Positions 557 to 61,993 of a DNA stretch of 64,000 nt are shown in pieces (the first letter of the stretch is position 1; each line of letters begins with the position of its first letter). Source of the stretch: Coffea arabica (lineage: Eukaryota; Streptophyta; Magnoliopsida; Gentianales; Rubiaceae); contig NC_092324.1 of NCBI RefSeq assembly GCF_036785885.1, positions 23,239,001 through 23,303,000 on the forward strand. The letters are read 5' to 3'. The position numbers and the translations under genes are program-made. The notes below the pieces were generated by a model. It did not search any database and had not been told where the DNA came from. It was given only the letters and a program-made list of their open reading frames with translations.

Positions 557-2410
557 AAAACAAAAACAAAACAAAAATTGAAGAGAAATTTGAGAGAGAG
601 GGCCGGCCACCTTGAAGAGAGAGTGAGAGCCGTGAGAAGAGAAAGAAAAAAAGAAAAGGAAAGCTTGCTTTGGTGCATCATTTTTGCTCTTCAATCTTGA
701 GTTTGGATCTTGGAGAAACAACTTAAGCACTTGATTGTTGTGGGTGATCATCTACAAAGCTTGAATCAAAGGTAAGAAAGTCTATTTGAAGACTTAAGTT
801 GATTATTGTTTGATGAACTAGTGGTTATTTTGGCATAGGACCCTAGTTGTGCTTGATTGTGGTACCTCTTATGCCTATCACATGTTTTTATGGAGTACTT
901 GGGTTAATTTTAGTGTTATTTGGTTGCTGAAAATTCGGCCAAGAAGAGGAAAGAATTTGGGTTTCTTGCTAATGCTTTCCTTACTTGTTTTAGTTGAGAA
1001 ATGGACTTGTAGTGGTTATGTTTGATGAATTGCCTCACTTGATTTGGTTGGTTACTTGCAAAAAGCTGATTTGGGTAAGAAACCCTAGACTCTATTAGGC
1101 TAATTTAGCTTAGCTTATGGTTAGTGAGATAGAGTTTGGTTAGTGAGAGGTTGGATTAAGTTCATTGGTGCAAATGAAATTTGGTTAGGGATTGTGGTTG
1201 ATGATTGTTCAATTTGGTATTGACTTGGGAGGGGAATTTCGGACCATTTGTAGGCCATTTAGATGTTAGTATATGTGTGTTTAATTGGTACAAAAGTGGT
1301 TGAAAAACCTGCATAAGAACCATGAAAACGAACCATATGTTTGCGACATTTGAAACCGGCAAAATGGGTAAACAGGGCAACCCAGAACCTGAACTTGAGC
1401 TCCATTTTTCTTAATGTTCCGTGCTGATTCAGAAGTTTTGTAAAACATAAAAGTCGTAGCCCCTTGAGTCCTGAGTATTCCTGCAAAATTTCAGGTCAAT
1501 CGGATTAGCGTAGCCTGAGTTATCGACGAAATGCTCAAGCCTGTTTTGACCCTCTGGTTCTACGCGTTTTCTGATTTTGTTTCTGCCCATGACTTTTCGA
1601 TTTTTATAGAGTTCGATCTGGGTGCCGACTCCTTCATAAGAAGTTTAGATCTTGATCTCAGCTTCGAAACGGTATAAAGTACGTCGAAAACCGAGTTCCG
1701 TAGCTCCGGTTATGATCAAAACAATATCGCTCGTCAGAACTGCCTTGTATTTGGACAGTTCTGACGGGTACGTTGGCACTCGAATTTTGTTTTGTTCTGA
1801 ATAGATTCAGGTCTTGGCCAAAACATGAAAGTTTTAACCTTATGTCTCAGCTTTCTAATGCCTTTGGAATTTCTTAATTTCGATTTCTGAGCCGTGAGTT
1901 ACGGCCTTGCAAACAGGGCCTGTTTGGTAACTCGCAATGAAACAGCTGGAACTGTTTCACGCAATTTTCACCTATACCCTTTGAGATCTGGGTTGCGATG
2001 TCTTCATGAACATTGTAGCCCTTCCTCTTAGCTTCGTAACGGTACCTCATGTACCTTGATCCGATATTCCTAGCCTAAATTTTGACCAAAACGGTTTGAG
2101 ATGGCCGACTTGGCCATTTCCGTTTGCCGTTCTGCGCGGACGTGTGCGGCCGTTTTGCCGTTTCCGCACTTGCGCGTGCCAATTTTGCTGTTTGGCTTAT
2201 TTCAAGTATGTTAGTTGCCGTTTGTGATATATTGTGACATCACCTTCGATTTCAGACAGTGGTGAGCTAGGCGGTGCCGGTGGGGCCCACTACTAGCCAA
2301 CACACAAAGTGAATTCCGCCTTTATACTACTTTTGGTATTTTGAGTAAGTATTCAGGCCGCTCTTATGTGTTAGTTGTTTATGTGTTTCGTTATGCGTAA
2401 AAAGGGTACC

Positions 2411-2443
2411 TAGGCGAGAGTGTACTTTATCGCGCTCGACCTA
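2411..2443 (+). other. Conserved LTR hairpin 1 (loop TACTTTAT), element A
   Basis: The left arm TAGGCGAGAGTG and the right arm CGCGCTCGACCTA flank the octamer TACTTTAT at 2423-2430. Pairing holds for about eleven positions, with one G-U pair, one A-G mismatch and one bulged A. The same loop on different stems occurs in LTRs B, C, D and E. Confidence 0.6.
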
Positions 2444-2783
2444 AACCCTAATTTGCGCGCTTATTTGTACATGACAAATGTATATAAGAAATTTTGGGAA
2501 CTAAAACCCTTGAGCTTGTGGCTCGGGGTGACTTTTGTATAATTTTGTGAATTTTGTGAGTTTGAGGTTGAACTCAATACCTAGATGGACTATTCGAGCC
2601 GGTTAGGGCTTGGTCGAAGTCAGTCCAACTTGGTTTGAGGTCACCAAGTTTGTGACCCGAGCTTATGCTTAAAGCTCAAGTTTGTGATTTCGTTCGCCTG
2701 GGCAAGTTTGTGAGGTGACTGGCCAGTGAGGGTGATAAGGTGTCGGTGGGTGTACAAGTGAAGTTCTACGGACCTTATTTATG

Positions 2784-7955: not shown

Positions 7956-10132
7956 TGTGAGAGCCCGTAGCTTTCTTAAGTACTAGGTTTTATTTTTCTT
8001 TTAATTGCACGCTTTTCCACATTTTATTTATTCGAAAATTGTGAAATAAATTTTATGAGTAAATATAGTCTTTAGATGATTTTTCTAGTGTCGGTCAGTT
8101 TCTGAGAAATTAAGAGCATATATTGGACGTAGGACCCGCTAGTGCGAAAAGTTCGGAAAAATTCGGTCAACTAGGTTAAGTTTTGGATACTGGAGTTAAT
8201 TTACCGGGTGTTAAGAGATAAGTAAAGGATGCTAAGTGGATTGGTATAAGAGAGACAAAAGTTAGGCAAGTCATAAATGAGGTGACAAGTGTCACCATGA
8301 GAGAGGTTCTTACCTAAGACCACTATTCACCTTTTCTAATTGACCAAATAAATCACAAAATTAACCAAAAATTCACCATTTTTCTCTCCTCTTTGGCCGG
8401 CTCTCTCTCTCAAGAAAGGAAGAAAGAAAGCTCTCCAAGTTGCTTCAATCTTTGCTCCAATCTTCTAAATCAACCATTGGAATTTGTTTTTGCTCCATAG
8501 AAAACATTGAGTGTTAGTGAGGTGTTGTGTGGAGTTATTTGGAAAGCTAAGAGGACCAATTGCTCCCTCTCTCTTGTTTCTAAGGTGAGTTGAGAAGAAC
8601 CACTTTCCTTCCTCTAATGATGACTAATTTATTATTAGTAGTGGTAGAAGATGAAACTTTATGGATTACATCTTGAGTTTTGGTTGAATTGGTGAAGTTT
8701 TCTATTTATTGGTGATTTTTCTGTTTTCATATGAACATGATTGTGTGGCTGTCTATGATGATTGGAAATGATGTTTAATGACTCTAGGAGGTGGAAAAAG
8801 TGATTAATTGCAACCAATTTCTGGTTTGGAAGAAATTTGAAAAAGTTAGGGTTTGTTGTTCTTCATTCAGCCCGAATTGGTAGCTCCTATTTAGAGGCCG
8901 AATTGGCCTTACCTTAAAACATGAAAGTTGTAAATAATTCCATTTTAGATGTTCCTAAAAAATTTCAGGTCAATCGGAGTAGCGTAGAATGAGAAAAGTC
9001 GAAATTACCCTTGCTGTCCTGGTTTTACCCCAAATTGAGAATTGCTTCTGTAATTGGTTCCTTTGGTTAGGAATGATTCCGAATTGGATGTTAAGGTCTT
9101 CTGATGAAATGTAACCCTGTGTCTTAGCTTTCAGCTGGTTTTGGAATTTCTGGATTTGGACTTGGATAGCCTGATTTATGATGTTTCCGCTAGAATGCAT
9201 TATGTGAATCTGTTTTTGTGATTCTGGTGTAGTATCTTGCATTTTTGACCTGGTTACACTCGAAACTGGGTTGAGTGACCTTCTGTAATATTGTAACCCT
9301 ATCTCTTAGCTTAGAAACGGTGGGTCTTGTACCCTTATCCGATAATCGTAGTGTCTTAGGTGCTATTACCGCAAAATGAGGTCAAAAACTGTTTTTTTTT
9401 CAGGGCTAAAGCTAAATCTTTTCCGGATTTTTCTGGTTTCCTCTAATGCTTATGTATGCTTATGGAACCCTCTTTCAGTAGTATTTGGCATTGGTTTATG
9501 ACTTGTAATCGAGTCTTATTGTGCATATTGGAATATTTTAGGGCTTGACTTTCATTTCCGGTCATTTTCCTAGCTAAATTCCGTACTTGAACTAAATTCC
9601 GTACTTGAATGATTTTCAGCCTAGTGAACGGCTTTTGGAAATGAGATTATTTTGTGTGAGATGTTGGGACTGATTTGAGGAAATAATGAAGCCATTAATG
9701 GTTGGAAAATAGGTAAACACAAGGGATTTGCTGCCGAAATTTTTCTTGAAGGCTAGTTGGATTCCGACTTGTCTTTGGTCCAAGTGCTTTTTGCCGCAAA
9801 ATTTTATAACCCTTTTTAGTTTAGTTTTACGTTTGGTTTATGAAACCCTAGATATTTCCGACCATCAGTCCAAATGCCCCGTTTCGCTTTAAAGTCATTT
9901 TTATGCGTTTTACTCATCATTTATTGGGTTTCTTCGATTTCACCTAATTGGTTGTGCGATATTCTTTCTCGTTGAATCTTAGGTTTTCTCGGTGATTAAG
10001 GATACTATCCAGAAGGATATTTTGCATAGTTAGGTGAGTGTTCCTTTTTTGTTATGTTTCTTGATTATATGGCTTGTATATATGACTGATAACATGTTAA
10101 ACGCTTTCAATGAGTAGCCAAAACGAGTTTTC

Positions 10133-10165
10133 TAGGCGAGTGTGTACTTTATCGCACTCAGCCTA
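10133..10165 (+). other. Conserved LTR hairpin 1 (loop TACTTTAT), LTR B2
   Basis: TAGGCGAGTGTG and CGCACTCAGCCTA flank TACTTTAT (10145-10152). Twelve pairs form, with one G-U pair and one bulged A. The same sequence occurs near 15076 in B3. B4 has it near 23178, with one change in the outer stem. Confidence 0.65.
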
Positions 10166-10318
10166 AATGATTGTGAAATTTTCAATGAATGAACGATTGA
10201 AATGTTACTTGTGCATGAATGTAAGCCTTTTGGCTGAACTGGCCACTGCCCTTGTTACCGATCGACTCGAGCCAGAAGCGGACTCGGTCGGGCGATATGG
10301 TGACCTGGGTGAACGTTT

Positions 10319-10337: not shown

Positions 10338-11658
10338 TTGTAGGTTGGTGGAGCCTGGCCAATTTCCAGGAGGGGGTGAATGAAATGAACGAATGAACGA
10401 ACGAACGAGGGTTTATTTATAGAAATGAAATTTTCAAATGATTGGAGGAATAAGGGGAAATGTCAGGAGAACGAATGAATGATCGAATGAATTGCTCCCT
10501 GTTAGCCGTATCCTTTTCATGAATGTTTTATCGCTTTCCATTGTAAATGTTTCGTGAAGTAGTGATATTCCATGTTAGTGTATTGGATTGATTGTTTTAT
10601 TATGTGTTCAGAACCTCACTGAGCTTTTAGCTCATCCCTTTTATTTTGTTTTCCTTAACAGGGGAAGGCACGCAAGGATGAGAGCTTGGTATAGACTCGT
10701 TTTGTCTAGCTCTTTGTTTTGTAATGGTTCTCGCCCTAGTGCTTGGCACGGGCTGGTTGTATGGTGAAGTGAGAACCTTTGTACATTTGATGGTTGTACT
10801 TTTGAGATAGCAATGTATAAAATTTTGTTTTAAGTTTTGGATCCTTGTTTTGCTCTTTCTGGTGGTTGTATTTCTGATTTTCTTGAGTGAACGACTGAGT
10901 CCCGGCGAGAGCTGGGCAGGCGGTCCGCCGAACCCTTTGGTTCGCCTTAGGGGGAGGTGGGGCTGTCACAGGTGGTATCAAAGCCTGCTTCGCGTGGTCT
11001 CTACGCGGAGTGAGCCTGGACTGAGTGGTGAAGAGGTATAAATAGGTATAAAGGATTAAGTGCTCGTTCGAGCCTAAGCTCTGAATTGTGACTGTTATAG
11101 GCCTTAAATTTTCTTGTGGTATTTGAGGACCATAAATAGGTACGTCTGGTAGGAATTTCGATTGTAGATGGTTTACTCTTGGGACTGGCCAGCTCGAGAG
11201 GGGAATTGTCTTATTTCGGATTCTTGTGCCTGAGTACTCCAGTGTTGAGGCGGTGTTAAGTATGTGGGATTTGCATTTCGGGAACATGAACAAGTTTTGC
11301 TTGGCTAGAATAAGACAGGAGGTCAAGGGACAACTAGGTTGGTTGATAAGTGACGTGAGAGACCGGACGAGGTTATTTGACTGCGACCGGGATGATATCG
11401 CCTTTACTTTTGATTTGCTCTTATACCGTTATGAGATGACATTGGTTTGAGTAGTTGTGCATATGATTATTTGTTTAATTTGACATGTATTTGTGCATTT
11501 GATTGTCTACCATCTTGATACATGGTGTGTATATGTGTATATGTCTGTGGTGTAATTGGTGTGCTAGAATTCGATTACTTTTGTCACTTTCCTGTATTTA
11601 TTCGCTGAATTATATTTTTTGGGAGGGGAAAAAAAAAGAGGGGGAAAAACATATACAT

Positions 11659-12898: not shown

Positions 12899-15800
12899 TG
12901 TGAGAGCCCGTAGCTTTCTTAAGTACTAGGTTTTATTTTTCTTTTAATTGCACGCTTTTCCACATTTTATTTATTCGAAAATTGTGAAATAAATTTTATG
13001 AGTAAATATAGTCTTTAGATGATTTTTCTAGTGTCGGTTAGTTTCTGAGAAATTAAGAGCATATATTGGACGTAGGACCCGCTAGTGCGAAAAGTTCGGA
13101 AAAATTCGGTCAACTAGGTTAAGTTTTGGATACTGGAGTTAATTTACCGGGTGTTAAGAGATAAGTAAAGGATGCTAAGTGGATTGGTATAAGAGAGACA
13201 AAAGTTAGGCAAGTCATAAATGAGGTGACAAGTGTCACCATGAGAGAGGTTCTTACCTAAGACCACTATTCACCTTTTCTAATTGACCAAATAAATCACA
13301 AAATTAACCAAAAATTCACCATTTTTCTCTCCTCTTTGGCCGGCTCTCTCTCTCAAGAAAGGAAGAAAGAAAGCTCTCCAAGTTGCTTCAATCTTTGCTC
13401 CAATCTTCTAAATCAACCATTGGAATTTGTTTTTGCTCCATAGAAAACATTGAGTGTTAGTGAGGTGTTGTGTGGAGTTATTTGGAAAGCTAAGAGGACC
13501 AATTGCTCCCTCTCTCTTGTTTCTAAGGTGAGTTGAGAAGAACCACTTTCCTTCCTCTAATGATGCCTAATTTATGATTAGTGGTGGTAGAAGATGAAAC
13601 TTTATGGATTACATCTTGAGTTTTGGTTGAATTGGTGAAGTTTTCTATTTATTGGTGATTTTTCTGTTTTCATATGAACATGATTGTGTGGCTATCTATG
13701 ATGATTGGAAATGATGTGTAATGACTCTAGGAGGTGGAAAAAGTGATTAATTGCAACCAATTTCTGGTTTGGAAGAAATTTGAAAAAGTTAGGGTTTGTT
13801 GTTCTTCATTCTGCCTGAATTTGTAGCTCCTAGTTAGAGGCCGAATTGGCCTTAGCTTAAAACATTAAAGTTGTAGGGAATGACATTTTAGAGGTTCCTA
13901 CAAAATATTAGGTCAATCGGAGTAGCGTAGAATGAAACAAGTCGAAATTACCCTTACTGTCCTGGTTTTACCCAAAATTGAGAATTGCTTCTGTAATTGG
14001 TTGCTTTGGTTAGGAATGCTTCCGAATTGGATGTTGAGGTCTTCTTATGAAATATATCCCTATTTCTTAGCTTTCATCTGGTTTTGGAATTTCTGGATTT
14101 GGACTTGGATAGCCTGATTTATGATGTTTCCGCTAGAATGCGTTATGTGAATCTGTTTTTGTGATTCTGGTGAAGTATCTTGCATTTTTGACCTGGTTAC
14201 ACTCGAAACTAGGTTGAGTGACCTTCTACAATATTGTAGCCCTATCTCTTAGCTTCGAAACGGTGGGTCTTGGACCCTTATCCGATAATCGTAGTGTCTT
14301 AGGTGCCATTACCGTAAAATGAGGTCAAAAACTATTTTTTTTTCAGGGCTAAAGCTAAATCTTTTCCGGATTTTTCTGGTTTCCTCTAATGCTTATGTAT
14401 GCTTATGGAACCCTCTTTCAGTAGTATTTGGCATTGGTTTATGACTTGTAATCGAGTCTTATTGTGCTTATTGGAATATTTTAGGGCTTGACTTTCATTT
14501 CCGATCATTTTCCTAGCTAAATTCCGTACTTGAACTAAATTCCGTACTTGAATGATTTTCAGCCTAGTGAACGGCTTTTGGAAATGAGATTATTTTGTGT
14601 GAGATGTTGGGACTGATTTGAGGAAATAATGAAGCCATTAATGGTTGGAAAATAGGTAAACACAAGGGATTTGCTGCCGAAATTTTTCTTGAAGGCTAGT
14701 TGGATTCCGACTTGTCTTTGGTCCAAGTGCTTTTTGCCGCAAAATTTTATAACCCTTTTTAGTTTAGTTTTACGTTTGGTTTATGAAACCCTAGATATTT
14801 CCGACCATCAGTCCAAATGCCCCGTTTCGCTTTAAAGTCATTTTTATGCGTTTTACTCATCATTTATTGGGTTTCTTCGATTTCACCTAATTGGTTGTGC
14901 GATATTCTTTCTCGTTGAATCTTAGGTTTTCTCGGTGATTAAGGATACTATCCAGAAGGATATTTTGCATAGTTAGGTGAGTGTTCCTTTTTTGTTATGT
15001 TTCTTGATTATATGGCTTGTATATATGACTGATAACATGTTAAACGCTTTCAATGAGTAGCCAAAACGAGTTTTCTAGGCGAGTGTGTACTTTATCGCAC
15101 TCAGCCTAAATGATTGTGAAATTTTCAATGAATGAACGATTGATATGTTACTTGTGCATGAATGTAAGCCTTTTGGCTGAACTGGCCACTGCCCTTGTTA
15201 CCGATCGACTCGAGCCAGAAGCGGACTCGGTCGGGCGATATGGTGACCTGGGTGAACGTTTGGTATACTCGAGTATTACCTTGTAGGTTGGTGGAGCCTG
15301 GCCAATTTCCAGGAGGGGGTGAATGAAATGAACGAATGAACGAACGAACGAGGGTTTATTTATAGAAATGAAATTTTCAAATGATTGGAGGAATAAGGGG
15401 AAATGTCAGGAGAACGAATGAATGATCGAATGAATTGCTCCCTGTTAGCCGTATCCTTTTCATGAATGTTTTATCGCTTTCCATTGTAAATGTTTCGTGA
15501 AGTAGTGATATTCCATGTTAGTGTATTGGATTGATTGTTTTATTATGTGTTCAGAACCTCACTGAGCTTTTCGCTCATCCCTTTTATTTTGTTTTCCTTA
15601 ACAGGGGAAGGCACGCAAGGATGAGAGCTTGGTATAGACTCGTTTTGTCTAGCTCTTTGTTTTGTAATGGTTCTCGCCCTAGTGCTTGGCACGGGCTGGT
15701 TGTATGGTGAAGTGAGAACCTTTGTACATTTGATGGTTGTACTTTTGAGATAGCAATGTATAAAATTTTGTTTTAAGTTTTGGATCCTTGTTTTGCTCTT

Positions 15801-17829: not shown

Positions 17830-17840
17830 GGGGGAGAGAG

Positions 17841-19979: not shown

Positions 19980-22105
19980 TGTGAGAACCCGTATTTTTCC
20001 CATTTTCTAGGTTTTATTATTTTCCGTGGCTTGTTTTCTGCATTTTCGTGATTAGGAAAAATTTCTAGATACTTTTAAGGAGCAGATATAATTTTTAGGT
20101 GATTTTTCTAGTATCAAATAGATTTTTAGAAATTAAGAGCATATACTGGACGTGGGACCCACTGGTGCGAAAAGTTCAGAAAAATTCGGCCAACTAGATT
20201 AAGTTTTGAATACTGGAATTAATTTACCGGGTGTTAAGAGATAAGTAGAGGGTGCTAAGTGGATTGATATAAGAGAGACAAGGTTGCTGAACATTTATGA
20301 AAAGGTGACAAGTGTCACCATTTGAGAGGTTGAACCTTAAGACCACTATTCATGGTCTTACCATTTGACTTAAATAAACCAAAAATGACCCAAAAATCAT
20401 CAAAATATCCTCCATGGTGGCCGAGCTTCTTGAGCAACAAAAGAAAGAAAGCTCTTCAAGATTTTAGCTTCAATCTTGCTTCAATCATTAAAACCAACCA
20501 TCCAACCTTGATTTTCCTCCATAAAACACCTTCAAGTAGTGTTTGTGAGTTGTTGTGTGAAGTTATTTGGAAACTTAAGGTGACCAATAGCTCTCTCTCT
20601 CTTGTGTTAAAGGTAAGTTGTGAAGAACCACCCTCCTCCCTTAATTGATGCTTAAATCATGCTTAGTGGTTGTATGAGATGCAAATTTATGGGTTATTTC
20701 TTGATTTGTGATTGAAATGATGAAGTTTTATTATTTTTGGGGATTTTTCTGTTTTAATATAAGCATGATTGTGTGGCTATCTATGATGATTATAAATGAT
20801 ATATAAGGCATCTAGAAGGTGGAAAAAGTGGAAGATTGCAAGTAATTTCTGTTTTGGAAGAAAATTGAAAAAACCTAGGGTTCATGAAGCTACATTCTGT
20901 CCGAATTTTTAGGTCCTAGATAGAGGCCGAATTGGCCTTGGCTTAAAACATGAAAGTTGTAGGGAATGACAGTTTAGAGGTTCCTACAAAATTTCAGGTC
21001 AATCGGAGTAGTGTAGAATGAGATAAGTTGAAATTACTATTGCTGTTCTGGTTTTACCCGAAATTGAGAAGTGCGTCTGTAATGGGTTGTTTTGGCTGGA
21101 ATTGATTCCGAATTGGTTGTTGAGGCCTTTTGATGAAATTTACCCCTGTTTCTTAGCTTTCAGTTGGTTTTGGAATTTCTGGATTTGGACTTGTAGAACC
21201 TGAGTTATGATGTTTCCGCTAGAATGCGTTTTGGTGAATCTGTTTTACGTTTTTGATGTAGTATCTTGCATTTTTGACCTGTTTGCACTCAAAACTGGGT
21301 TGAGTGACCTTCTGTGATGTTGTAGCCCTGTATTTTAGATTCGAAATGGTGGATCTTTCACCCTAATCCTATAATCGTAGTGAAATTGGTGCCATTACCG
21401 CAAAATGAGGACAAAAACTGTTTTTTTTTCAGGGCCAAAGCTAATTGCATTTCCGAATTTTCTGGTTTCCTCTATTGTTTGTGTATGCTTAGGGAACCCT
21501 ATTTTGGTAGTATGTAGAATTGGTTTATGACTTATAATCGAGTCTTATTGTATTTATTTGAATAGTTTAGGGCTTGACTTTCATATCCGGTCATTTCCTA
21601 GCTAAATTTTGTACTTGAATGCCATTAAGCCTAGTGCACGGCTTTTGGGAATGAGATTATTTTTGTACGAGATGTTGGGACTGATTTGAGGAAATAATGA
21701 AGCCATGATGGCTGGAAAATAGGTAAAAACAAGGGATATGCTGCCGAAATTTTTCTTGAAGGCTAGTTGGATTTACTTGTGATTTGAACGAAGGGCTTTT
21801 GGGTTGTTTGAGCTTAGGTCTTCATGTTACCTTTTCGTTACCAAAAACCATGTTTTGCACCCTTGCTTTAGTAATTATTTGGCAAGGCATACGACTGGTA
21901 GTCGAGCCTCACATGTGCATTCTGTATACTCAATTTTGAAAGTGGAACCTTCAATTGTTTTCCTTGGATTATTTTAGGGTTTCTTGGTGATTAAAGCTCT
22001 CTTTTGGGAGGTATCTGCACTGACCCTGGTGAGTGTACTACTCACTTGTGTGTTATGATATGGCTTTGATATGTGAACTTGAGATGTTGAATGTTAATTG
22101 ATTGG

Positions 22106-22133
22106 AGTGAGAGTGTACTTTATCACTCTCACT
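22106..22133 (+). other. Conserved LTR hairpin 1 (loop TACTTTAT), LTR C
   Basis: AGTGAGAGTG and CACTCTCACT are perfect 10-bp arms around TACTTTAT (22116-22123). The arm sequence differs from A, B and D while pairing is kept. Confidence 0.65.
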
Positions 22134-22477
22134 TATTGTTTCGCATGTTATTGAAAAGTTATTGGAATGTTATATGAAATGTTATATGAAATGAAATACA
22201 TGACTTAGTGTCGTTTGGACGAGTCTCCAACGACTACAAATGTTATCAATGAGCTCAACCCCATTGGTAGTTGATTGAATCGAGCCGGCGAGGGCTTGGT
22301 CGTGCCAATTAATGAACCTTGGGTAAAGTTATATGGAATCTTGTAGTATGCGAGACTCTCGATTCCGGTATACTCGAGTAATACCAAAGTGCAAGTGTTT
22401 GGAGTTCGGGCCCGGTAGGGGGATGTTAGGTGGAAGGAGTGGGAGTAAAGTGGAGTCTACGGTTGGTTACCTTTGAA

Positions 22478-22541: not shown

Positions 22542-23129
22542 ATCTGTATCCTTTTATCACCATATTTGACGTGTGCCTTTGCTTATTTTACTATATTGAA
22601 TGAAAGCTTGATGCTTATATGCACTTGCTTGCGTAAGTGATAGTATCTCACTGGGCAATTAGCTCACACCAATCCTTTTGTTTTCCTTACAGGAATATGA
22701 CTCTTTTTGGAATGAATCTTGATAGATGGTTGCCGAATGAACTAGATGTATATCTCTTTTGTATTGTATATGAAGTGAAACCCTAAATGTATCTTTGGGG
22801 CCGTTTTCACTTTCAATTTGGCAAACCGTGTATATATTCATTTTTGACAACTTTTATATGTCACTTTGGATTGTATTTGCTAAAGTTCAAGATGTGAATG
22901 TTTGTTCGATATTTGGTTGCGTTCTGACGGGTCGGTTACTATTCATGACCGATTCCGGATTTCATTTTTTTTATTTTGGGTTATATTGCCCTTTTACCTT
23001 GTTTACGCGCGTTATACGTTCCGGAACGACATAGATTGCTCTAAACTGCACCGTTAGTCCTGGCGAGAGTTGGGCAGGCAGTCCGCTAACCCCTTTGGTT
23101 CGCCTTAGGGGAAAGGTGGGGCTGTCACA

Positions 23130-23937
23130 CTGATAACATGTTAAACGCTTTCAATGAGTAGCCAAAACGAGTTTTCTAGGCGAGTGTGTACTTTATCGCA
23201 CTCAACCTAAATGATTGTGAAATTTTCAATGAATGAACGATTGAAATGTTACTTGTGCATGAATGTAAGCCTTTTGGCTGAACTGGCCACTGCCCTTGTT
23301 ACTGATCGACTCGAGCCAGAAGCGGACTCGGTCGGGCGATATGGTGACCTGGGTGAACGTTTGGTATACTCGAGTATTACCTTGTAGGTTGGTGGAGTCT
23401 GGCCAATTTCCAGGAGGGGGTGAATGAAATGAACGAATGAACGAACGAACGAGGGTTTATTTATAGAAATGAAATTTTCAAATGATTGGAGGAATAAGGG
23501 GAAATGTCAGGAGAACGAATGAATGATCGAATGAATTACTCCCTGTGAGCCGTATCCTTTTCATGAATGTTTTATCGCTTTCCATTGTAAATGTTTCGTG
23601 AAGTAGTGATATTCCATGTTAGTTTATTGGATTGATTGTTTTATTATGTGTTCGGAACCTCACTGAGCTTTTAGCTCATCTCTTTAATTTTGTTTTCCTT
23701 AACAGGGGAAGGCACACAAGGATGAGAGCTTGGTATAGACTCGTTTTGTCTAGCTCTTTGTTTTGTAATGGTTCTCGCCCTAGTGCTTGGCACGGGCTGG
23801 TTGTATGGTGAAGTGAGAACCTTTGTACATTTGATGGTTGTACTTTTGAGATAGCAATGTATAAAATTTTGTTTTAAGTTTTGGATCCTTGTTTTGCTCT
23901 TTCTGGTGGTTGTATTTCTGATTTTCTTGAGTGAACG
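23130..23937 (+). mobile_element. LTR B4, second segment
   Basis: LTR B resumes with the duplicated CTGAT then AACATGTTAAACGC and matches B3 from that point. It holds hairpin 1 near 23178-23206, the TACTCGAGTA palindrome and the 3' splice consensus near 23704. It ends at the target GAACG (23933-23937), where the Sirevirus is inserted. Confidence 0.9.
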
Positions 23938-28100: not shown

Positions 28101-29418
28101 GCACAAGAAGAAGGAATTGATTTTGATGAAACATTTGCTCCCGTAGCAATATTAGAATCTATTAGAATGCTTCTTGCTTTTGCATGCTTTAAAGGCTTCA
28201 AATTGTTTCAAATGGATGTTAAAAGTGCCTTTTTTAAATGGTTTTATTGATCAAGAAGTATATGTGGATCAACCCCCCGGTTTTGAAAATACAAAATTTC
28301 CAAGTCATGTGTTTAAACTATCTAAAGCTTTATATGGTCTAAAACAGGCTCCAAGAGCTTGGTATGAAAGACTAAGTGGTTTTTTGATTGAAAATGGTTT
28401 CAAAAGGGGTGTTGTGGACACCACACTTTTTACTAAGCAAGTGTTGAATGACCTTCTTATTGTGCAAATATATGTTGATGATATTATTTTTGGTGCTACT
28501 AATGAGTATCTATGCAAGGAGTTTTCCACCACTATGCAAAATGAATTTGAAATGAGTATGATGGGAGAATTAAATTTCTTCCTTGGACTTCAAATACATC
28601 AAGCGCTTGAGGGAATTTTTATAAATCAAGCAAAATATACCAAGGAATTGCTGAAAAGGTTTGGCATGGAGGACTCAAAGCAAGTTGGAACTCCAATGTG
28701 CACTTCTACAAAGCTTGACAAAGATGAAGAAGGTAATCATGTGGATGAAAAGCATTATAGAGGTATGATCGGAAGCCTACTCTATTTAACCGCAAGTAGA
28801 CCTGATATTATGTTTGCTGTTTGCTTGTGTGCTAGATTTCAATCTTGTCCAAAAGAATCACATTTGAATGCTGTAAAAAGGATTTTTAGGTATTTGAAAG
28901 GTACATTAGACTATGGTCTTTGGTATGCTAGATCTAATGAGTTTGCACTATATGGTTATTCGGATGCTGATTTTGGAGGTTGTCGTGTGGATAGAAAGAG
29001 TACTAGTGGAACTTGTCATTTTCTTGGAAATTGTTTAGTCTCTTGGTTTAGCAAAAAGCAAAATGCAATATCTTTGTCTACAACCGAAGCGGAATATATT
29101 GCCGCTAGTGCATGTTGTGCTCAACTTTTATGGATGAAGCACACTTTGAATGATTTTGGATTGTTGTATGACTGCATGCCTGTATTCTGTGATAATACTA
29201 GTGCTATAAATTTGACCAAAAATCCTATTCATCATTCTAGGACAAAGCACATAGATATAAAGCATCACTTCATTCGTGATCTTGTTCAAAAAGGTGAAAT
29301 ATGTGTAAATTATGTTTGTTCTAAAGATCAATTTGCTGATATTTTTACCAAAGCTCTGCCATTAGATCAGTTCATTCATCTAAGATCAAAATTAGGAATA
29401 ATCGAAAAATCATCCTAA
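25191..29418 (+). pseudogene. gag-pol: Sirevirus gag-pol, broken by one stop and one frameshift
   Basis: This encodes the copia polyprotein. The ATG at 25191 opens a gag N-terminus. An in-frame TAA at 25299-25301 follows MIIFL where homologues usually have Gln, so it fits a C-to-T nonsense change. The frame continues through gag, one zinc knuckle ([14 protein letters not shown], near 26110), the protease motif DSG (from 26337), the gag-pre-integrase HHCC region (HRRLCHFN ... CDACQFGK), the integrase catalytic Asp, Asp and Glu ([24 protein letters not shown]) and the start of reverse transcriptase (GTKWIFRNK). One extra T in the run at 28230-28235 shifts the frame, so the first reading ends at 28250. 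The rest reads in the +1 frame to 29418 with the RT catalytic motif YVDDIIF and RNase H (YSDADFGG, TEAEYIAAS, KHIDIKHH). The length is normal for the family. Confidence 0.92.
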
Positions 29419-29432
29419 AATTTCTCAAAGTC

Positions 29433-29548
29433 TTCGAACGTCCGAAAGAAGATGAACGGACGTCCGATGATGTTCTTCAGCCATTTTCCAGAATTGCGCC
29501 TGTTCGGACGCAACTGTCGGACGCACAACTTCGTTCGGCCGTCCGACA
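29433..29548 (+). promoter_or_regulatory. Second CGGACGTCCG cluster, between pol and the third ORF
   Basis: Starting 15 nt after the pol stop, several CGGACGTCCG-like and CGGACGCA motifs recur, ending in GTCCGACAGTGCAACGGCT. The LTR cluster ends similarly (GTCCGAAAGCCCCAACGGCT). The rest of the gap to 29910 looks like an AT-rich leader. The block could be an internal promoter for the third ORF; this is inference. Confidence 0.4.
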
Positions 29549-29910
29549 GTGCAACGGCTCATTTTTTAAAACAACTTTCTTCCTCATTTGCTTCAGACTC
29601 TTCCCATTTTATTTCCTCTCGGACGAAAACCCTCTTGTCTCTCACTCTCAAATTCATATCGTTCTGAAGCCCCCATTCCAAAATTGACTCAACCAAAACA
29701 GTTCCTGATCAATTGCGAGTCATTATTCCTGATCATTTCACAGAATCATCTATCACTTCGCACATTCCCAAATTTTCTTCAAAACCCTATCTTTTCATAA
29801 CCGCTCTGTCAAATCTTCTACAAGGCTTTTTTGTTCCAAAATTTTTGTGCGATTCACTTTCCTACTACTGTGTGTATCATTTGCATCTATCATTCCATAC
29901 ATTTCGCACA

Positions 29911-31376
29911 ATGGTGAATCTAAGGGGAGGAAAAGTTACTGCCGGACGCAAGCATCCACTCAGGGATGAGGATGAGAGTCTTCCCACTGTCAAACGGACA
30001 TCCAAACGCTTCAAAAGAGGAGCTATCAAGGGTCAAATGTCACGGCCTACACCACAACCCTCCTCTCAGCCTGAATCTGGACAGGGGACATCTTCTCAAC
30101 CGCCTCCAAAATCAGCCCCTCCTCCTACATTCTTTGATGATGCTGCGAAAGACAAATACTCCTGGATATCCCAGAAGGGTGTCATCCCTCAAAGAACTGT
30201 AAACCCCTCTGAATTTTGCTCCATAGGTTTAGAATCCATTCTGAGTCTATTTGCTTTCCAGAAATGGTCACATCTTATTTCTATGCCAAATGTCTACTAT
30301 CCTGATATGTTGCATCAATTTTTTGCCAATCTTAGGAAATGTTCTGACCAAACTGAAATATTTTCCAGGGTTAATGGGGTAGACTTAATCTTTGACTCTG
30401 AAATTGTGAACTCCATTTTAAATACTACCATTGAACGTTTATGCAAAGATAAGATTGCTAATTTCTTTTCCTATGAAGAGCTCCCGACTGCGGCAAATCA
30501 TTTTGATGGGACAAAAATGTTAACCTATTTCAAAAGAAGTTTTTCCTCACCTGCTGATGCTAAATTGAATGATCTGGCCCCTGTGAATTTAATTGCTTTT
30601 TCTATCATTTCAAACCTGCTTGTGCCTACTGATGGCCATAGAACTGATGCAAACAAAATGGAGTTGTACCTCTTTTATTGTTTTCAAGAAAAAATTCGTA
30701 TTGATTTTGGTTTTGTCATGTGCAAGTTTTTACTTCGCTATGCCACTGATTCTCGCAGAAAATTATCTTATGGAAAGTTTCTTCAAAAGATTTTTGAGTT
30801 TTACAAAGTCCCTATTCTAGGTGTTTGTCCTAAAGAAGCATCTTCTTATGCCTTTACAAAAGGGTATTTTGAAAGGAAAAATCTTGTTTTTAAAGATAAT
30901 CTGTGGGCTTATAAGGGTGTATCATCTAGTGAACTTAGGTCTAAGGCTGCACATGATCCTTCATCTATTCCACTCACTCCCATTCATCCTAGGAAATCTG
31001 CCTCTAAGGCATCTTCCTCTTCCAGTGATGAAGTAATTGAGCTCCTTCGTGAACTCAAACAGCATGTTCTTCTTCTAGAACATGGTCTAATGCTCACTAT
31101 GTCCTCTGAGCAACAAACTGCCTTCCTAGACAAAAAGAACCTCCTGTTTCCCCCCCTGTTGTTGAGGAAGTTTCCCATGACAAAGAGTCACACCCCACTG
31201 ATCCAAGTTCATCAATTCCGGATCCTGGTTCTTCAACCCCTGTGACTCCTCATGGCACCTCTACATCAGATAAAGGCAAGGCACCAGTTGAAGAGGCTGC
31301 TGAAAATGATGAAGAAACTGAAGAGGAGGATCTTGATCAATATCAGCTCTCTCGGAGGACACCTGGATCCACTTAG
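29911..31376 (+). pseudogene. Sirevirus third ORF (envelope-like / plant transposon-associated protein), frameshifted
   Basis: This ORF lies downstream of pol, where SIRE1-like elements carry a so-called envelope-like ORF. I take the ATG at 29911 (MVNLRGGK); the frame is open from 29713. The N-terminus is basic with a nuclear-signal-like stretch (KRTSKRFKRG), then Pro/Ser/Gln-rich. A folded-looking central domain (about residues 80-320) contains motifs such as FDSEIVNSIL, KMELYLFY and RRKLSYGKFL. I see no convincing signal peptide or membrane segment, so a true envelope role is doubtful. The tail is acidic and Ser/Pro-rich. Between about 31105 and 31150 the frame shifts: the annotated reading continues as unlikely sequence to 31245, while the -1 frame gives a low-complexity acidic tail (EEAAENDEETEEEDL) ending at 31376. 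Confidence 0.6.
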
Positions 31377-32107: not shown

Positions 32108-32680
32108 TGTGACGACCCCACCTTTCCCTAAGGCGTACCAAAGGGTTCGGCAGACCGCCTGCCCAGCTCTCGCCAGGACTCACTCACTATCTCAATCGAG
32201 TCACGTACACACATCCATGAACCATAAATAACATTCCCAATTCAAGCTTATAATTTACATTAATAGAAATCGAAGTACAAAGTCTCAATACACCAAACTA
32301 GTTCAGAACGTATACAATCCAAGTACAACATGTTTCATTCGAGGAATAGCGCGAGTACAAGACCAAAAAGTCAAAAGTCAAACAAAAGGCTACGCTAGTC
32401 TTTTACAAGTCTCACGCATCACTCGTACCCCTGAAAGGAAAACAAATGGAGTGGAATGAGCTAAGAGCCCAGTGAGGTTCCAAATAGCAAATTGACCATT
32501 ATTTATAAGTACGAGTTTTCGATATAGCAAAGTAATGAGCATAAAGTGTTCATAAAGTGTTCATAAATATGAACAGTAGCACGTCAAGTAGCAATCTTAA
32601 AATGAGCGCATGTAGAAAATTTTTCAAAAGAAACAATAATCCAATAAACAATAATCATTCCAAAGTATAAGGATACGGAT

Positions 32681-32750: not shown

Positions 32751-33048
32751 TTTCAAGTAAGTAACCAATCCAGTAGAACACCACTTAAACGACTCTCCGT
32801 CCACCGTTCAACCCCCAACTGGGCCCAAAATCCTCAAGAACACGGGTGGTAATACTCGAGTATACCGATTAGTCGAGGAGATATCACTCCACTCTACGAT
32901 ACAAGAGACCTAGGGTTCGTTACCCAATCGACCAAGCCCTTGCCGGCTCGACTAGAGTAACTCGCCACAGGATTTCTGGAATTCCAGGAAGTGCGCGCAT
33001 CATAAACAAGTATATCAAGTCAATTGCAACAATAAACAAGTATATCAC

Positions 33049-33086
33049 GTAAGGGCAAGTGCGATAAAGTACACTCTTGCCCTTAC
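33049..33086 (-). other. Conserved LTR hairpin 1 (loop TACTTTAT), LTR D1
   Basis: On the + strand, GTAAGGGCAAG (33049-33059) pairs with CTTGCCCTTAC (33076-33086), an 11-bp perfect outer stem, plus a three-pair inner stem next to the loop ATAAAGTA (33064-33071). This is TACTTTAT on the minus strand. One mismatch separates the stems. It repeats in each D unit. Confidence 0.7.
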
Positions 33087-35574
33087 AATTCACGTATATA
33101 ACATGTAATCAGATTGGTCACGTATCAAGTTCAAGTATCAAGTTCAATTCGGTATTTGAAAGCACTAACCCAAAAGATATAGTGCTACTGGTCACTTTCA
33201 GGTTATACTCCGAGTTCGGAGTCCAAATCTGCGATAAAACTCAATTTGAGAACTTTGAAACATGACTAGAGTTCGAAACTTAGACGTTTCGTTCAATAAG
33301 AATCAAGAAATTGAAATTCACTTGGAGAATACTCGTGAGATACTCGCTCACTTTTTAAATGATAAAACTTTGTAACATTTATACTTGAAATGGTCATGCG
33401 AGTCGAAAGTACAAGGGAAAACGTACTTTGAGCAATCATTATTTCATTTCCCAAGGGTACAAGTTCGGCCAAATCCTTACTTATATACCTCGAACAAGAA
33501 GACTCAAGTACCCTAGATGGTTCAAGTACTATTCATATCAACTCGACCCAAGTCGCAAGTGTATTTATATAGTCCTCGAGCGTAAATTTGGGCAGCATGC
33601 CCTTTGTGTTTACCTAATTTTCCAGCCATTTAGGATTCATTATTTTTCTTCAACAACAGCCCAACAACATACATATCAGCAATTTATGTCAAGAGCCGTT
33701 CCATAGGCTCACAATATCATAACAACAAGAACCGCATCAAGTACAAGTGCAGAAATTCAATGTGGCACAAGACAGATTTGACGTATACAAGCGGAAATAA
33801 CTTGTCCGAGGCTACGCTTATTGGATTAAGGCGAAACCTATGCCGTTTCGAAGCTAAGACACAAAGCTACAACATTCATGAAGGTCACTTAGTCCATTTC
33901 CTAATGTAACTTAGTCAAAATCTCAGACTACTAAACCAGAAACCAATTCATCGGCTGTTTAAACGCATTATGCTGTAGCGGACCTAACTCAGTGTACACA
34001 AGTCCGAATCAGGTTTTCTTTGAGGCATTTTAAAGCTACTTCAGAACACTAAAACTTTTATGTTTTGGCCCAGAGCTAAATCAGAATGGATCCTGATCAA
34101 AAATCGTGATAAACTGGACTGAACTGAAGAAACGGACTGCTGGGAAATTCTTAAAACAGCAAGGGTATTTTGGACTTTTCACGACCTCCGTTGCTCCGAT
34201 TGAGCTGAAATTTTACAGGCACCTATAAAATGCCATTCTATACAACTTTCCTTCTTTGACCAAAGGCCAATTCGGCCTCTAACATATAGGTACAATTTCG
34301 GACAGAATGCTTGGGAAATTTTCCAGAAATCTGGAATTTTTAGCTCTAAGTGTAATTTCCTCAAATTTCTGGTTCTAATCACCACTAAACAACCTTATAT
34401 AACCTTAATTGCAACATTTACACATCATACATCACATTGAGCAGAAAATCAGAACCCCTAGTTCATCAAATAAATTGGGGAAAACCTCTAAATCATGCTA
34501 ATCATCCATGATTCCACCACTATAATCAAACTACTAACTTAATTTAACAAAATCAAAAGCAAAACTTAGAGAGATGAGTTCTCTTACCTTGGTTAGAAGT
34601 CTCTAAAAGCAGCCCCAAGCTTTCCTTTTCCAAACTTTCACCACCAAACACTAACTAACCACTCAAAGACAAGATTAATCGGTTTCTTTTGTTTGATTTC
34701 TCACTTTGTTGGTGGATTGAAGAAGAAATGGAGAAGAGTTTTGTTTTTCCTCTCTTGTTCTTACTCTCTCTCTCTCTCGACTCTTAGCAGCAGAAAATGA
34801 AGAGAAATGAAGCTGATTTTTGTCTTATAAGGAGTAAGAAGGTTAGAGTTAATTAAGACCACAATTTGGCTAACACTTGGACAATTCTTAGCCACTAATT
34901 TTTCTCTTTCTTCCCCTTGCTTATAAGCCACAAATTTCGGTCCCCTTAGCTGTAATATAAGAAGATATTTTGGCTCAAATATCAATAAGCTTGTGGTGCA
35001 AGAAAGTGGTGGTCCAGTGGTGCGTTCAAACGGTAGTGCGCGGGACCCGCCGGTTCGCGCCGTTTTTCTTAAAAACTCACGTACTAGGGTTTTTACTTCC
35101 CATTCACTAACCTTATTTTACTGCTACTACTCACATATTATTTTTCACTTAAAAGTCACTTTTAATCTCCAAATTTAATCCTTACTCTGTACCGAAAATT
35201 CATCCGGCGAAAAATCGCGAAAACCCTAATTTTACTCCAAACTTGAAACCAAAGCGTAAAACCTTATTTTCTAGGTTTATTTACACTTATCATGGGATAA
35301 TTGGATAGTAGGGCTTTAATAAATGATAATCTTCAAATAAAAAGAAATTTTTAAGAAAACGTGAGGAATTTTCCAATTCCAGTAATTAAAATTAGGGTTT
35401 CAATTAAAATATGAGAGATTTAGGAAAACCGGTTAGTCACAAGTAAACTAGGGTTTTTGGCTACAATATTAGGGTTTCTAGTCTTTTAAACCAAAATAAG
35501 GTTTTAAATCAACCCAAAGAAATACACTTTAATATTTTCTTCACAAACAACCTCCTAATATTCGGGATGTTACA

Positions 35575-36349
35575 ATCTCCCCTCCTTAAAAGAATTTCGT
35601 CCTCGAAATTCATACATGCACTTCGAATAACATAGGGTATTTTCCTTATATATATCATCCAATTGTGCCATCTCACAGATTCACTGGAACTCAAGTGATA
35701 GCCTGTCAGGCAGATCAACAGATCAGGGTAAGTAACTAAACACAAGTAATAATCTAACCATATACCGGTTGGTTGAAAAATCGAATGAGACGGACGGGAG
35801 GGTAGAACATAATCGGGGCAATATCTTAAAATGACATCAAGGAAGCATAACCAAGGGAAGAAGAAAGAAATCGGTCTTTGGCGAGACTTTCTCGACATAT
35901 ACTACAACCTAATCATCCTCTATAGGAACCCTAGCCAAACTATTACTCGATTCGTCCATGAAAACACTCCTGGGTGTTCAGGTACAAGAATCCACAATAA
36001 GGTAATTCACAACTCGAGCCGGCCGGTCCCAAGAGTAAATTACCCATATTAGAGATTCCTACCCAGCATACATATCTAAGGTCCCCAACAATAGACAATT
36101 GTTCCACACTTAACAAGTCAATCCCCACAGTCCAAGAACCTTCTCCCGGCACGAGCTCGATAGGAGCTCTGATACCATCTGTAACAGTTCTCAGGGTCAC
36201 ATTACAGGGTACCTATCAGCTTGCCACCCGCACGCGGGCATCCCCTACGGAGAGTTTCGCTTCGTGACTCTTCATGAACGAGAGGCTCGGGGCTTTTCCA
36301 GACGAAGGACTTAAGGTCCCAACTGTCGGCATATGGCTCTGATACCATC
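35575..36349 (-). other. Internal region of D unit 1 (775 bp, no coding capacity)
   Basis: Read on the minus strand it starts with the primer site TGGTATCAGAGCC (36347-36335), a perfect iMet match two bases from the LTR. It ends with a polypurine tract next to 35574. Between them I find no gag or pol. A second primer-site-like sequence preceded by an LTR-end-like TGTTACAGA occurs at 36177-36165. Bases 35967-36082 match the leader of array B. A frame running through the polypurine tract (FEDEILLRRG) is the relic of a pol C-terminus, not a gene. Confidence 0.8.
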
Positions 36350-59227: not shown

Positions 59228-59803
59228 TGTGACAGCCCCACCTTCCCCTAAGGCGAACCAAAGAGGTTAGCGGACTGCCTGCCCAGCTCTCGCCAGGACT
59301 AACGGTGCAGTATAGAGCGATCTATTGCGTTCCGGAACTTATAACGCGCGTAAACAAGGCAAAAGGGCAAAATAACCCAAAATAAAAAAAAAATTCGGAG
59401 TCGGCCATGAATAGTAACCGACCCGTCAGAACGCAACCAAATATCGAACAAACATTCACATCTTGAACTTTAGCAAATACAATCCAAAGTGACGTACAAA
59501 AGTTGTCAAAAGTGAATATATACACGGTTTGCCAAATTGAAAGTGAAAACGGCCCTAAAGATACATTTAGGGTTTCACTTCATATACAATACAAAAAAAA
59601 AAATATACATCTAGTTCATTCGGCAACCATCTATCCAAAAAGAGTCATATTCCTGTAAGGAAAACAAAAGGAACGGTGTGAGCCAATTGCCCAGTGAGAT
59701 ACTATCACTTACGCAACCAAGTGCATATAAGCATCAAGCTTTCAATCAATATAATAAAAATAAGCAAGGCACACGTCAAATATGGTGATAAAAGGATACA
59801 GAT

Positions 59804-59868
59804 GGCTCTCAAGAGCCCTTTTCCTCGTTTGCATTTCTTGATCGAACGTCATTGACTCTCCGTCAATG
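59804..59868 (-). other. Conserved LTR hairpins 2 and 3, LTR E
   Basis: Hairpin 2 is CATTGAC-TCTCC-GTCAATG (59850-59868, + strand), with perfect 7-bp arms. Hairpin 3 is GGCTCT-CA-AGAGCC (59804-59817), beside GGATACAGAT. Confidence 0.55.
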
Positions 59869-60212
59869 TTCAACAATAACCATCCGTAGACTCCACTTTA
59901 CTTCCATTCCTTCCACCTAACATTCCCCAACCGGTCCCGAAATCCAAACACGTGCATTGTGGTATTACTCGAGTAAACCGGAATCGAGAGTCTATCATAC
60001 TACAAGATTCCATATAACATTGCCCCAAGGCACATTAATTGGCACGACCAAGCCCTCGCCGGTTCGATTCAATCAATTACCAATAGGGTTGAGCTCATTG
60101 ATAACATTTGTAGTCGTTGGAGACTCGTCCAAACGACACCAAGTCATGTATTTCATTTCATATAACATTTCATATAACATTCCAATAACTTTCCAATAAC
60201 ATGCGAAACAAT

Positions 60213-60242
60213 AAGTGAGAGTGATAAAGTACACTCTCACTT
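60213..60242 (-). other. Conserved LTR hairpin 1 (loop TACTTTAT), LTR E
   Basis: AAGTGAGAGTG (60213-60223) and CACTCTCACTT (60232-60242) are perfect 11-bp arms around ATAAAGTA, which is TACTTTAT on the minus strand. Confidence 0.7.
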
Positions 60243-61978
60243 CAATCAATTAACATTCAACATCTCAAGTTCAAATATCAAAGCCATATAATAGCACACA
60301 AGTGAGTAGTACACTCACCAAGCTAGCAAATGTGGTTTCATGCACTTCCGTCAAAAGAACGTTGTGCACCACGGTCACGTCCTAAAACATGCAAACAAAT
60401 ACAATGAGACTAGATAATGAGTCATAAACCAAGGCCAAACATGACCCCAATAGGGTTCCATAAGCATATACAAACATTAAAGGAAACCAGAAATTTCGGA
60501 AATGTAACTAGCTTTGGCCCTGAAAAAAACAGTTTTTGTCCTCATTTTGCGGTAATGGCACCAATTTCACTACGATTATCGGATGAGGGTGCAAGACCCA
60601 CCATTTCGAAGCTAAAAGACAGGGCTACAACATCACAGAAGGTCACTCAACCCAGTTTTGAGTGTAAACAGGTAAAAAATGCAAGATACTACATCAAAAA
60701 TGTAAAACAGATTCACCAAAACGCATTCTAGCGGAAACATCATACCTCAGGTTCTCCAAGTCCAAATCCAGAAATTCAAAAACCAACTGAAAGCTAAGAA
60801 ACAGGGCTAAATTTCATCAGAAGGCCTCAACAACCAATTCGGAAGCAATTCCAGCCAAAACAACCAATTACAGGCGCAGTTCTTACATTAGGGTAAAACC
60901 AGAACAGCAATAGTAATTTTGACTTATCTCATTCTACACTACTCCGATTGACCTGAAATTTTGTAGGAACCTCTAAAATTTCATTCCCTACAACTTTCAT
61001 GTTTTAATCCAAGGCCAATTCGGCCTCTAAATAGGACCTAAAAATTCGGGCAGAATGCTCCCTCAAGAACCCTAATTTTCTGAAATTTCTTCCAAACCAG
61101 AAATTGGTTGCAATTAATCACTTTTTCCACCTCCTAGAGTCATTATATACCATTTCTAATCATCATAGATAGCCACACAATCATGCTTATATTAAAACAG
61201 AAAAATCCCCAAAAATAATAAAACTTCATCATTTCAACCACAAATCAAGAAATAATCCATAAACTTGCATCTCATACTACCACTAAGCATGATTTAAGCA
61301 TCAATTAAAGGAGGAGGGTGGTTCTTCACAACTTACCTTAAGAACAAGAGAGAGAGAGCTATTGGTCACCTTAACTTTCCAAAAAACTTCACACAACAAC
61401 TCACCAACACTTCCTTAAGTGGTTTTATGGAACAAAATCAAGGTTGGATGGTTGGTTTTGATGATTTGGAACAAGATTGAAGTGTTTTCTTCCTTGTGCT
61501 TGGAGTAAGAGAGAGAGAAAGAGAGCAAGAGAGGGCCGGCCACCTTAGAGGATTTTTTGATGATTTTTGGCTCATTTTTGGTTTATTTAAGTCAAATGGT
61601 AAGACCATGAATAGTAGTCTTAAGGTTCAACCACTCAAATGGTGACACTTGTCACCTTTTATTAAATACCTACCTAACTTGTCTCTCTCATATCAATCCA
61701 AATTGCAACCTCTACTTATCTCTTAACACCCGATAAATTAATTCAAGTATTCAAAACTTAACCTAGTTGGCCGAATTTTTCCGAACTTTTCGCACTAATG
61801 GGTCCCACGTCCGGTATACGCTCTTAATTTCTCAAAACCTATTCGATACTAGAAAAATCATCTAAAAATTATATCTGCTCCTTAAATTCATCTAGCAATT
61901 TTTCTAATCACGAAAATGTAGAAAACAAGCCATGAAAAATACGAGAAACCTAGAAAATGAAAATTACGGGTTCTCACA

Positions 61979-61993
61979 CTCTCTCCCCCTTAA
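61979..61993 (-). other. Polypurine tract of element E
   Basis: On the minus strand TTAAGGGGGAGAGAG abuts the LTR start. It is the same tract as in array B. Confidence 0.85.

Follow-up and report, generated by a model that had tools for sequence, protein, structure and literature searches.

A small hairpin with a nearly invariant 8-nt loop occupies the same position in the long terminal repeats (LTRs) of five LTR families (A to E) in the window, i.e., the whole 64-kb stretch of Coffea arabica DNA that was analysed, and it probably serves as a tag through which the RNA of these elements is recognised. The function that we favour, with a probability of roughly 0.4, is the selection of unspliced RNA into particles, in which Gag or a partner of Gag would bind the loop.

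The loop octamer, TACTTTAT, is present in 14 copies in the whole window vs 3.2 expected, and none of 100 shuffles reached 14. Twelve of the 14 copies lie in one type of hairpin (one copy each in A, C, and E, three in B, and six in the units of D); the hairpin is absent at the other two, 1674 and 58486, both on the minus strand. All the octamer sites listed in the original prediction were located (Table 1), most of its other details hold, and RNAfold reproduced the stems described there. The stem scores at this loop were matched by 0.016–1.5% of window positions. When a 46-nt piece centered on the loop was ranked by folding energy among 530 pieces from its own region, it was 8th in A, 10th in B, 5th in C, 2nd in D, and 4th in E. 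A second E-type LTR with an identical hairpin is present in a further stretch, L123.

Table 1. Positions of the hairpins, splice-site-like sequences, and LTR parts (window coordinates unless a stretch is named)
Feature	Position	Strand	Remarks
Family A hairpin	2408..2446	+	octamer at 2423
Family B hairpin (gag-only element)	10130..10168	+	octamer at 10145
Family B hairpin, adjoining tandem unit	15073..15111	+	octamer at 15088
Family C hairpin	22101..22139	+	octamer at 22116
B4 hairpin, B-type LTR fragment	23174..23212	+	octamer at 23189; G-to-A relative to B in the 3′ arm opens one pair
Family D hairpin	33048..33086	-	11-bp outer stem, 1x1 mismatch, 3-bp inner stem; loop TACTTTAT 33064-33071
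Further D-unit hairpins, like 33048..33086	37290-37328, 41532-41570, 45774-45812, 50016-50054, 54258-54296	-	octamer in each of the five units
Family E hairpin	60208..60246	-	octamer at 60224; LTR downstream of chromodomain-type integrase end
A 5′ splice-site-like GTAAGTAT	2345..2350	+	
B 5′ splice-site-like AGGTGAGTGT	10034..10039	+	
C 5′ splice-site-like GGTGAGTGT	22029..22034	+	
D 5′ splice-site-like GGTGAGTG	33164..33169	-	98 nt 5′ of loop; offset measured on unit 37290-37328
E 5′ splice-site-like GGTGAGTGT	60313..60318	-	87 nt 5′ of loop; self-folds GTGAGT/ACTCAC
E upstream AAG/GTAAGT	61331..61339	-	1105 nt upstream; past CT-rich stretch; candidate exon 1 end
B 3′ splice-site-like module, like that of D	10589..10667	+	
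D 3′ splice-site-like module	32423..32499	-	CTCAC, small stem, TTTGTTTTCCTTTCAG/G
E 3′ splice-site-like module, like that of D	59645..59725	-	
E LTR	59228..61979	-	2752 nt, TGTGAGA...GTCACA; polypurine tract ahead at 61991
D conserved LTR terminal ~89 nt	32108..32196	-	primer-binding-site-like TGGTATCAGAGC after D LTR ends, e.g., 36336-36347
LTR ends without hairpin, window	5939-6027 (fragment starting at 5355); 57501-57587		
LTR ends without hairpin, other stretches	L154 (four), L167 (two), L123 7460, L169 (two), L157 849, L161 6372		

A covariance model built from six hairpins was run on 18 further 10-kb coffee stretches picked by coordinate, ten of them (L154-L158 and L167-L171) within ~10-120 kb of D copies or of the window and eight (L159-L166) at 22.0 Mb of eight other contigs. 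Nine of the 18 stretches contained a total of 15 more sense-strand hairpins with E 2.7e-5 or better (5 in L154-L158, 3 in L159-L166, and 7 in L167-L171); 12 of these 15 come from the ten stretches close to known copies, where the lineage is dense. More families carry the hairpin than the five originally named. Furthermore, a profile made from the final 90 nt of the LTR, searched independently in the window, in the stretches L122 and L123, and in the 18 stretches, identified 38 LTR 3′ ends, 25 of which have the hairpin upstream. An LTR end lies downstream within the same stretch for 12 of the 15 new hairpins, and the remaining three (L167 9155, L163 797, and L171 1248) are close to a stretch end or in a rearranged copy. 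No hairpin was found in the eight stretches that lack an LTR end.

The hairpin had been placed always about 830–1000 bp before the LTR 3′ end. The distance measured in the window is 829–1017 nt; over 17 LTRs it extends to 780–1299 nt, and the “always” fails at the 13 of 38 ends that have no hairpin upstream (Table 1), two of which (one in L154 and L157 849) have less than 910 nt of upstream sequence. In the tandem units of L154 and L167, the hairpin is truly absent, and the covariance model is also empty there. These are short tandem families (2596-bp units in L154, 2373- and 2334-bp units in L167) that keep the splice-site-like modules, so the hairpin is not indispensable for every family. 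Among 1820 genome-wide candidates for D copies, 40 were scored, 39 at 99% and one, the window itself, at 100%; the 30 D loci retrieved all bear the identical D hairpin, and such copies are too alike to be of use for covariation testing. In the IMG/VR viral collection, the motif had one match and a looser pattern at least 120, and no relative of the integrase end was found there.

Covariation was assessed on 21 distinct rows (6 from the window, 14 from the coordinate-picked stretches, and one from L140), with identical copies omitted and the two identical L163 copies counted once. In the inner eight pairs, 93.5% of the 168 cells are standard pairs vs 24–57% when the 3′ side is slid by 1–3 columns. 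Thirteen cells changed on both sides vs a shuffled mean of 5.5, a value reached in 0 of 500 shuffles. Two of the five shuffle measures do not rise above chance, namely the count of pairs showing a double change (3 vs 2.2 in the shuffles, reached in 163/500) and that of further pair types (9 vs 9.4, 401/500); over twelve pairs, the same two measures were reached in 432 and 455 of 500 shuffles. At single pairs, -2/+2 is UG in 16 rows, UA in 3, and CG in 2; -4/+4 is UA in 11, AU in 3, GC in 2, and unpaired in 5; -7/+7 is GC in 17, AU in 3, and unpaired in 1; and -8/+8 is CG in 8, UA in 5, UG in 4, and unpaired in 4. Some of the double changes rest on few families: AU at -4 is seen only in C, E, and L167E, and GC at -4 only in two L171 rows.

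Simple shuffles are inflated by the relatedness of the rows, and this, with the two measures at chance, is what one would expect if the hairpin were a product of chance and shared ancestry, a short stretch that has still not diverged. Against this reading stands a tree-based null, in which substitutions are placed randomly on the tree of the rows. For the inner eight pairs, 10 of 2000 simulations attained the observed pairing and 4 of 2000 the observed number of double changes. The twelve-pair ungapped model (80.6% paired) exceeds the tree null in double changes (7/2000) and is not above it in paired cells (540/2000); the four outer pairs, set for the bulge, gave 164/2000 for pairing and 41/2000 for double changes. 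A single bulged base is present further out in A, B, L158, L156a, and others, and such bases break the ungapped alignment, which makes the outer pairs less regular. When all pairs were tested against the tree null on the 21 rows, none was significant, the best stem pair being 2nd of 990 with E 0.78, a result that agrees with shared ancestry and that comes from a test of low power, given only 21 rows with few changes. The covariation is therefore modest: the pooled tree-aware tests pass and no single pair does, which supports the structure as a whole and not pair by pair.

The conservation around the loop also speaks against undiverged ancestry. On 13 rows in ungapped register, mean identity is 0.63–0.85 in the core, from 8 nt before to 15 nt after the loop; on the upstream side, it has dropped to 0.30 at 13 nt and stays at 0.27–0.38 out to 60 nt, and on the downstream side, it is 0.25–0.35 from 20 nt past the loop start, with 0.43 in intermediate bins. 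With flanks so diverged, and with the slid-arm controls and the pooled tests of the inner pairs as given above, we consider shared ancestry the most improbable of the explanations weighed here. Furthermore, each row’s own arms fold at a mean of -15.4 kcal/mol vs -11.6 kcal/mol for swapped arms (15 rows; 0 of 5000 permutations, which ignore the kinship of the rows).

These comparisons qualify two descriptions in the original prediction. The outer stems, described as unrelated, do differ freely in their outer half; in their inner part, homology can be recognised in every row, with G-C at -5 in 21/21. The loop, described as invariant, is nearly so, since 17 of 21 rows read TACTTTAT and the others TACCTTAT (one row), TACTTTAC (one row), and TACTTGAT (two rows).

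The same prediction left the choice between a selected RNA structure and a cruciform. One arm of an inverted repeat can serve as the template for repair of the other, with a result that looks like compensatory change, and C, D, and E have nearly perfect stems; a DNA-level feature (a cruciform or a protein-binding dyad) or the correction of a quasi-palindrome during reverse transcription could in principle have produced such arms. The U-G at -2/+2 in 16 of 21 rows and the mismatches at -4/+4 in 5 of 21 persist uncorrected, and such lasting U-G pairs and mismatches argue against the view that the covariation arose by correction of one arm from the other. Within the inner eight pairs, there are 23 G-U cells vs 5 A-C cells, counts that would be reversed on the antisense strand, and the covariance model scores 11–21 bits on the antisense vs 26–52 bits on the sense strand. 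The G-U excess and the weaker antisense scores point to an RNA of the sense strand and not to a DNA cruciform. Moreover, the loop and its closing bases are conserved as sequence and the flanks are not. We thus regard a DNA-level origin as very improbable, and the cruciform half of the prediction is disfavoured; the RNA half is supported by the two-sided changes, the island of conservation, the recurrence, and the G-U asymmetry, which together suggest a selected RNA structure.

The elements that host the hairpin differ in coding capacity. The E integrase end matches SH3_Tf2-1 (2.5e-29) and, at E 4.8e-4 and 20.4 bits, below the 25.1 cutoff, Chromo; some close relatives carry PF00385. The LTRs of B (~3016 nt) and E start with TGTGAGA behind a polypurine tract; LTR ends read GTCACA. 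In A, B, and D, the LTR ends are followed by the primer-binding-site-like TGGTATCARAGC, with one mismatch in A, which we take to be a primer-binding site of the tRNA-Met type. The integrase with its chromodomain-type end, the long LTRs, and the Met-type primer-binding site are those of Tekay/Del, and we infer that the host elements are Tekay/Del-type chromoviruses. In beet, Tekay LTRs measure ~2.6–3.0 kb except for one of 1.0 kb, and the primer-binding site is complementary to tRNA-Met (PMC3605345).

In family B, the gag frame (6560-7510) is followed after ~440 nt by the next LTR, with the polypurine tract and LTR at 7943-7955, which leaves no space for pol. B therefore corresponds to the TR-GAG type, a gag between two LTRs (PMC9784723), from which it differs in that its units stand in a tandem array. 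D has ~0.77 kb between its LTRs and no open frame of at least 180 aa in its units. The hairpin is thus common to E, with its integrase and chromodomain-type end, to the gag-bearing B, and to the frameless D.

Several of these elements form arrays. The stretch 32108-56772 of the window is a head-to-tail array of almost six protein-less D units with a 4242-bp period, 99.6–99.9% alike, in which the repeated unit is the LTR plus a short internal part; many D copies elsewhere stand ~4.1 kb apart. D also has two primer-binding-site-like sequences 170 nt apart (36166-36177 and 36336-36347, minus strand), likewise in four further units, and the second follows GTTACAGA, which resembles a duplicated LTR end. 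The gag-only tandem array at 5355-19979, present also in L122, has 4943-bp units that are 98–99% alike and share LTRs, and L154 and L167 (1371-6078) hold short LTR tandem arrays in which donor-like sites and a module of acceptor type are kept. Between the window’s arrays, at 25302-31242, lie gag-pol frames of copia type and a Transposase_32 frame.

Splice-site-like sequences surround the hairpin. A 5′ splice-site-like GT[AG]AGT lies 73–132 nt upstream of it in 15 of 19 rows, ten of which read GGTGAGTGT. Of the four exceptions, L158 has its site at -230, L156b reads GCTGAGTGC, L163b is too short (its sister L163a has GGTGAGTGT), and L171b has a rearranged junction. Two of the 15, L167 and L171a, have the weaker CATGTGAGTG at this position, plus GAGGTGAGTGA at -228 and -190. 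In C, E, L167E, and L171c, the donor-like site is able to form a fold of its own. In E, an upstream AAG/GTAAGT (Table 1) has the top score of its region under an approximate plant donor matrix.

Downstream, a module resembling a branch point and 3′ splice site was found in 39 copies, 28 of them distinct rows: a branch-point-like CTCAC is present in 20 of the 28 (by eye), AGCTYA in 25, and the pyrimidine tract with CAG/G in 24, the CAG being lost in three L169 rows and one L171 row. The pyrimidine tract begins 504–629 nt past the loop start in A to E, close to the ~500–620 nt to the candidate 3′ splice site that had been predicted. The length from donor to acceptor is 615–739 in 10 of 11 rows and 1474 in L161; T and G+C content gave no clear intron signal. 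A second small stem, GAGCT/AGCTC, stands between the CTCAC and the pyrimidine tract (28 rows; 32423-32499 on the minus strand and 2917-2989 in the window); in A, it becomes TAAGCT/AGCTTA, a compensatory change, and C/E and L169 are among the rows that pair less well.

This arrangement suggests that some of the transcripts have a spliced leader and that the hairpin would survive only in unspliced RNA. The conservation of a hairpin that splicing would remove suggests that it acts in unspliced RNA or in the splicing process, and its location within a probable leader intron makes packaging or splicing more likely than translation of the spliced mRNA.

The main rival is that the hairpin regulates splicing, setting the ratio of spliced to full-length RNA through the 5′ splice site close by; to do so, it would either bind a repressor or sequester a donor-like 5′ arm in the stem. 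The spacing agrees with this, the hairpin lying on average 97 nt (sd 17) past the donor-like site in 12 rows out of 19 (left out were the E duplicate, three rows with the site further away or weaker, and three without a site). In L156a, L167, and L169 (3 of 19 rows), GGTGAGTGT is the sequence of the 5′ arm itself, and in B and L158 this arm reads AGGCGAGTGT; to the eye, the arms of C/E, L161, L163/L170, and L157 are poor donors. Pairing between the 3′ arm and the donor-like site is feasible, at a mean of -10.9 kcal/mol vs -6.4 kcal/mol for shuffled arms, but the two do not co-vary (own -10.85, swapped -10.78, permutation P 0.42), and a donor-to-3′-arm switch was rejected as a co-evolving pair on this result. 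No observation ties the near-invariant loop to splicing control. Overall, we consider it a serious but unlikely alternative.

Our favoured reading remains selection into particles. The hairpin would act as a cis-acting RNA element in which a variable stem displays an 8-nt loop, UACUUUAU, that hardly varies and is in most cases closed by GUG/CRC; it lies close to the 5′ boundary of a probable intron within the LTR-encoded leader. This leader would be spliced in some transcripts, leaving the hairpin in unspliced RNA alone, where a protein supplied by an autonomous element, which is probably Gag, or a host factor that acts together with this protein, would bind the loop and select the unspliced genomic RNA for particles. 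Two features of the elements would be explained in this way. The LTRs would keep the intron because only unspliced RNA is packaged, as reverse transcription of spliced RNA should give intron-less LTRs, and the protein-less families would bear the same tag because they are packaged by the protein of the autonomous member. It is the presence of the hairpin in coding and non-coding families, with the putative intron kept in the LTRs, that leads us to favour particle selection. Conversely, the loop is unlike what we take to be a typical G-rich nucleocapsid site, which counts against this reading. More tentatively, and with doubt, the hairpin may be a lineage-wide identity tag, maintained through compensatory changes within the leader intron of the LTR, by which the autonomous Tekay protein would recognise the unspliced RNA of itself and of its protein-less kin; if the tag reading is true, the Gag-less and gag-only families would be copied in trans.

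RNAs bound by proteins typically have a conserved single-stranded loop on a free stem, and the same placement, in RNA expected to retain the intron, would also suit an element for nuclear export, stability, or translation of the unspliced RNA, with a host protein in place of Gag as its reader. The constitutive transport element and the Rev response element are structured intronic RNAs that act on unspliced transcripts; the putative intronic location is alike, and the coffee hairpin is much smaller. No Rfam family matches at its gathering score anywhere in the window, and we judge such a role to be rather improbable.

For particle selection, known systems offer partial parallels. In HIV-1, the SL3/psi packaging signal lies downstream of the major splice donor, and SL2 is the donor hairpin. 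The coffee hairpin would similarly be a small leader hairpin soon after a 5′ splice(-like) site, present in unspliced RNA only; unlike that of HIV-1, it lies inside the LTR, before the primer-binding site, it has the 8-nt UACUUUAU loop, and the binding of Gag is a proposal. The barley elements BARE1 and BARE2 (Ty1/copia) have separate RNA pools, splicing, and a packaged relative unable to make Gag, and are a precedent, in plant LTR elements, for split RNA pools and packaging in trans (PMC3735527). They belong to the copia superfamily, their 104-nt intron is one whose splicing favours a Gag-only RNA, and the words hairpin and stem-loop are absent from the main text of that paper (PMC3735527). 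In Ogre, a plant Ty3/gypsy element, an intron is likewise spliced from a subset of transcripts (PMC6317226), as we suppose for the coffee elements.

Two partners for the loop were considered and are not supported. A kissing-loop dimer does not fit, TACTTTAT having no 6-nt palindrome (by eye) and only the 4-nt GTAC across the closing G. As a long-range partner, ATAAAGTA was found 3 times vs 1.7 expected, in 3 of 19 rows and at unlike places; four overlapping 7-mers complementary to the loop gave observed/expected counts of 5/6.7, 3/6.3, 4/3.0, and 0/4.1 within 1400 nt.

A literature search over titles and the starts of abstracts, covering few subscription papers, retrieved no description of such an element for a Tekay LTR, and a search with the loop sequence gave no LTR title among the matches listed. 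To our knowledge, the discrimination between genomic RNA and mRNA by plant Ty3/gypsy elements, and the mobilisation of their protein-less relatives, are largely open questions. A defined element of ~35 nt in coding and non-coding families makes them accessible to probing, binding, and reporter assays, and the hairpin is also a marker for finding the non-coding members of the lineage.

Other parts of the LTR show their own patterns. The last ~90 nt are highly conserved (38 places, e.g., 59228-59316 on the minus strand), beside the primer-binding site, and the 3′ end has apparent small inverted repeats, CGAACC/GGTTCG in B. In the upstream halves (e.g., -900 to -400 from the loop in E), short stretches such as AAAACATGAAAGTTGTA and TTTCAGGTCAATCGGAG recur across families. 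C and E are alike at both ends and not in the stretch directly before the donor-like site, and C (19980-23129 of the window) resembles a mosaic LTR, with a junction to LTR sequence of B type at 23129.
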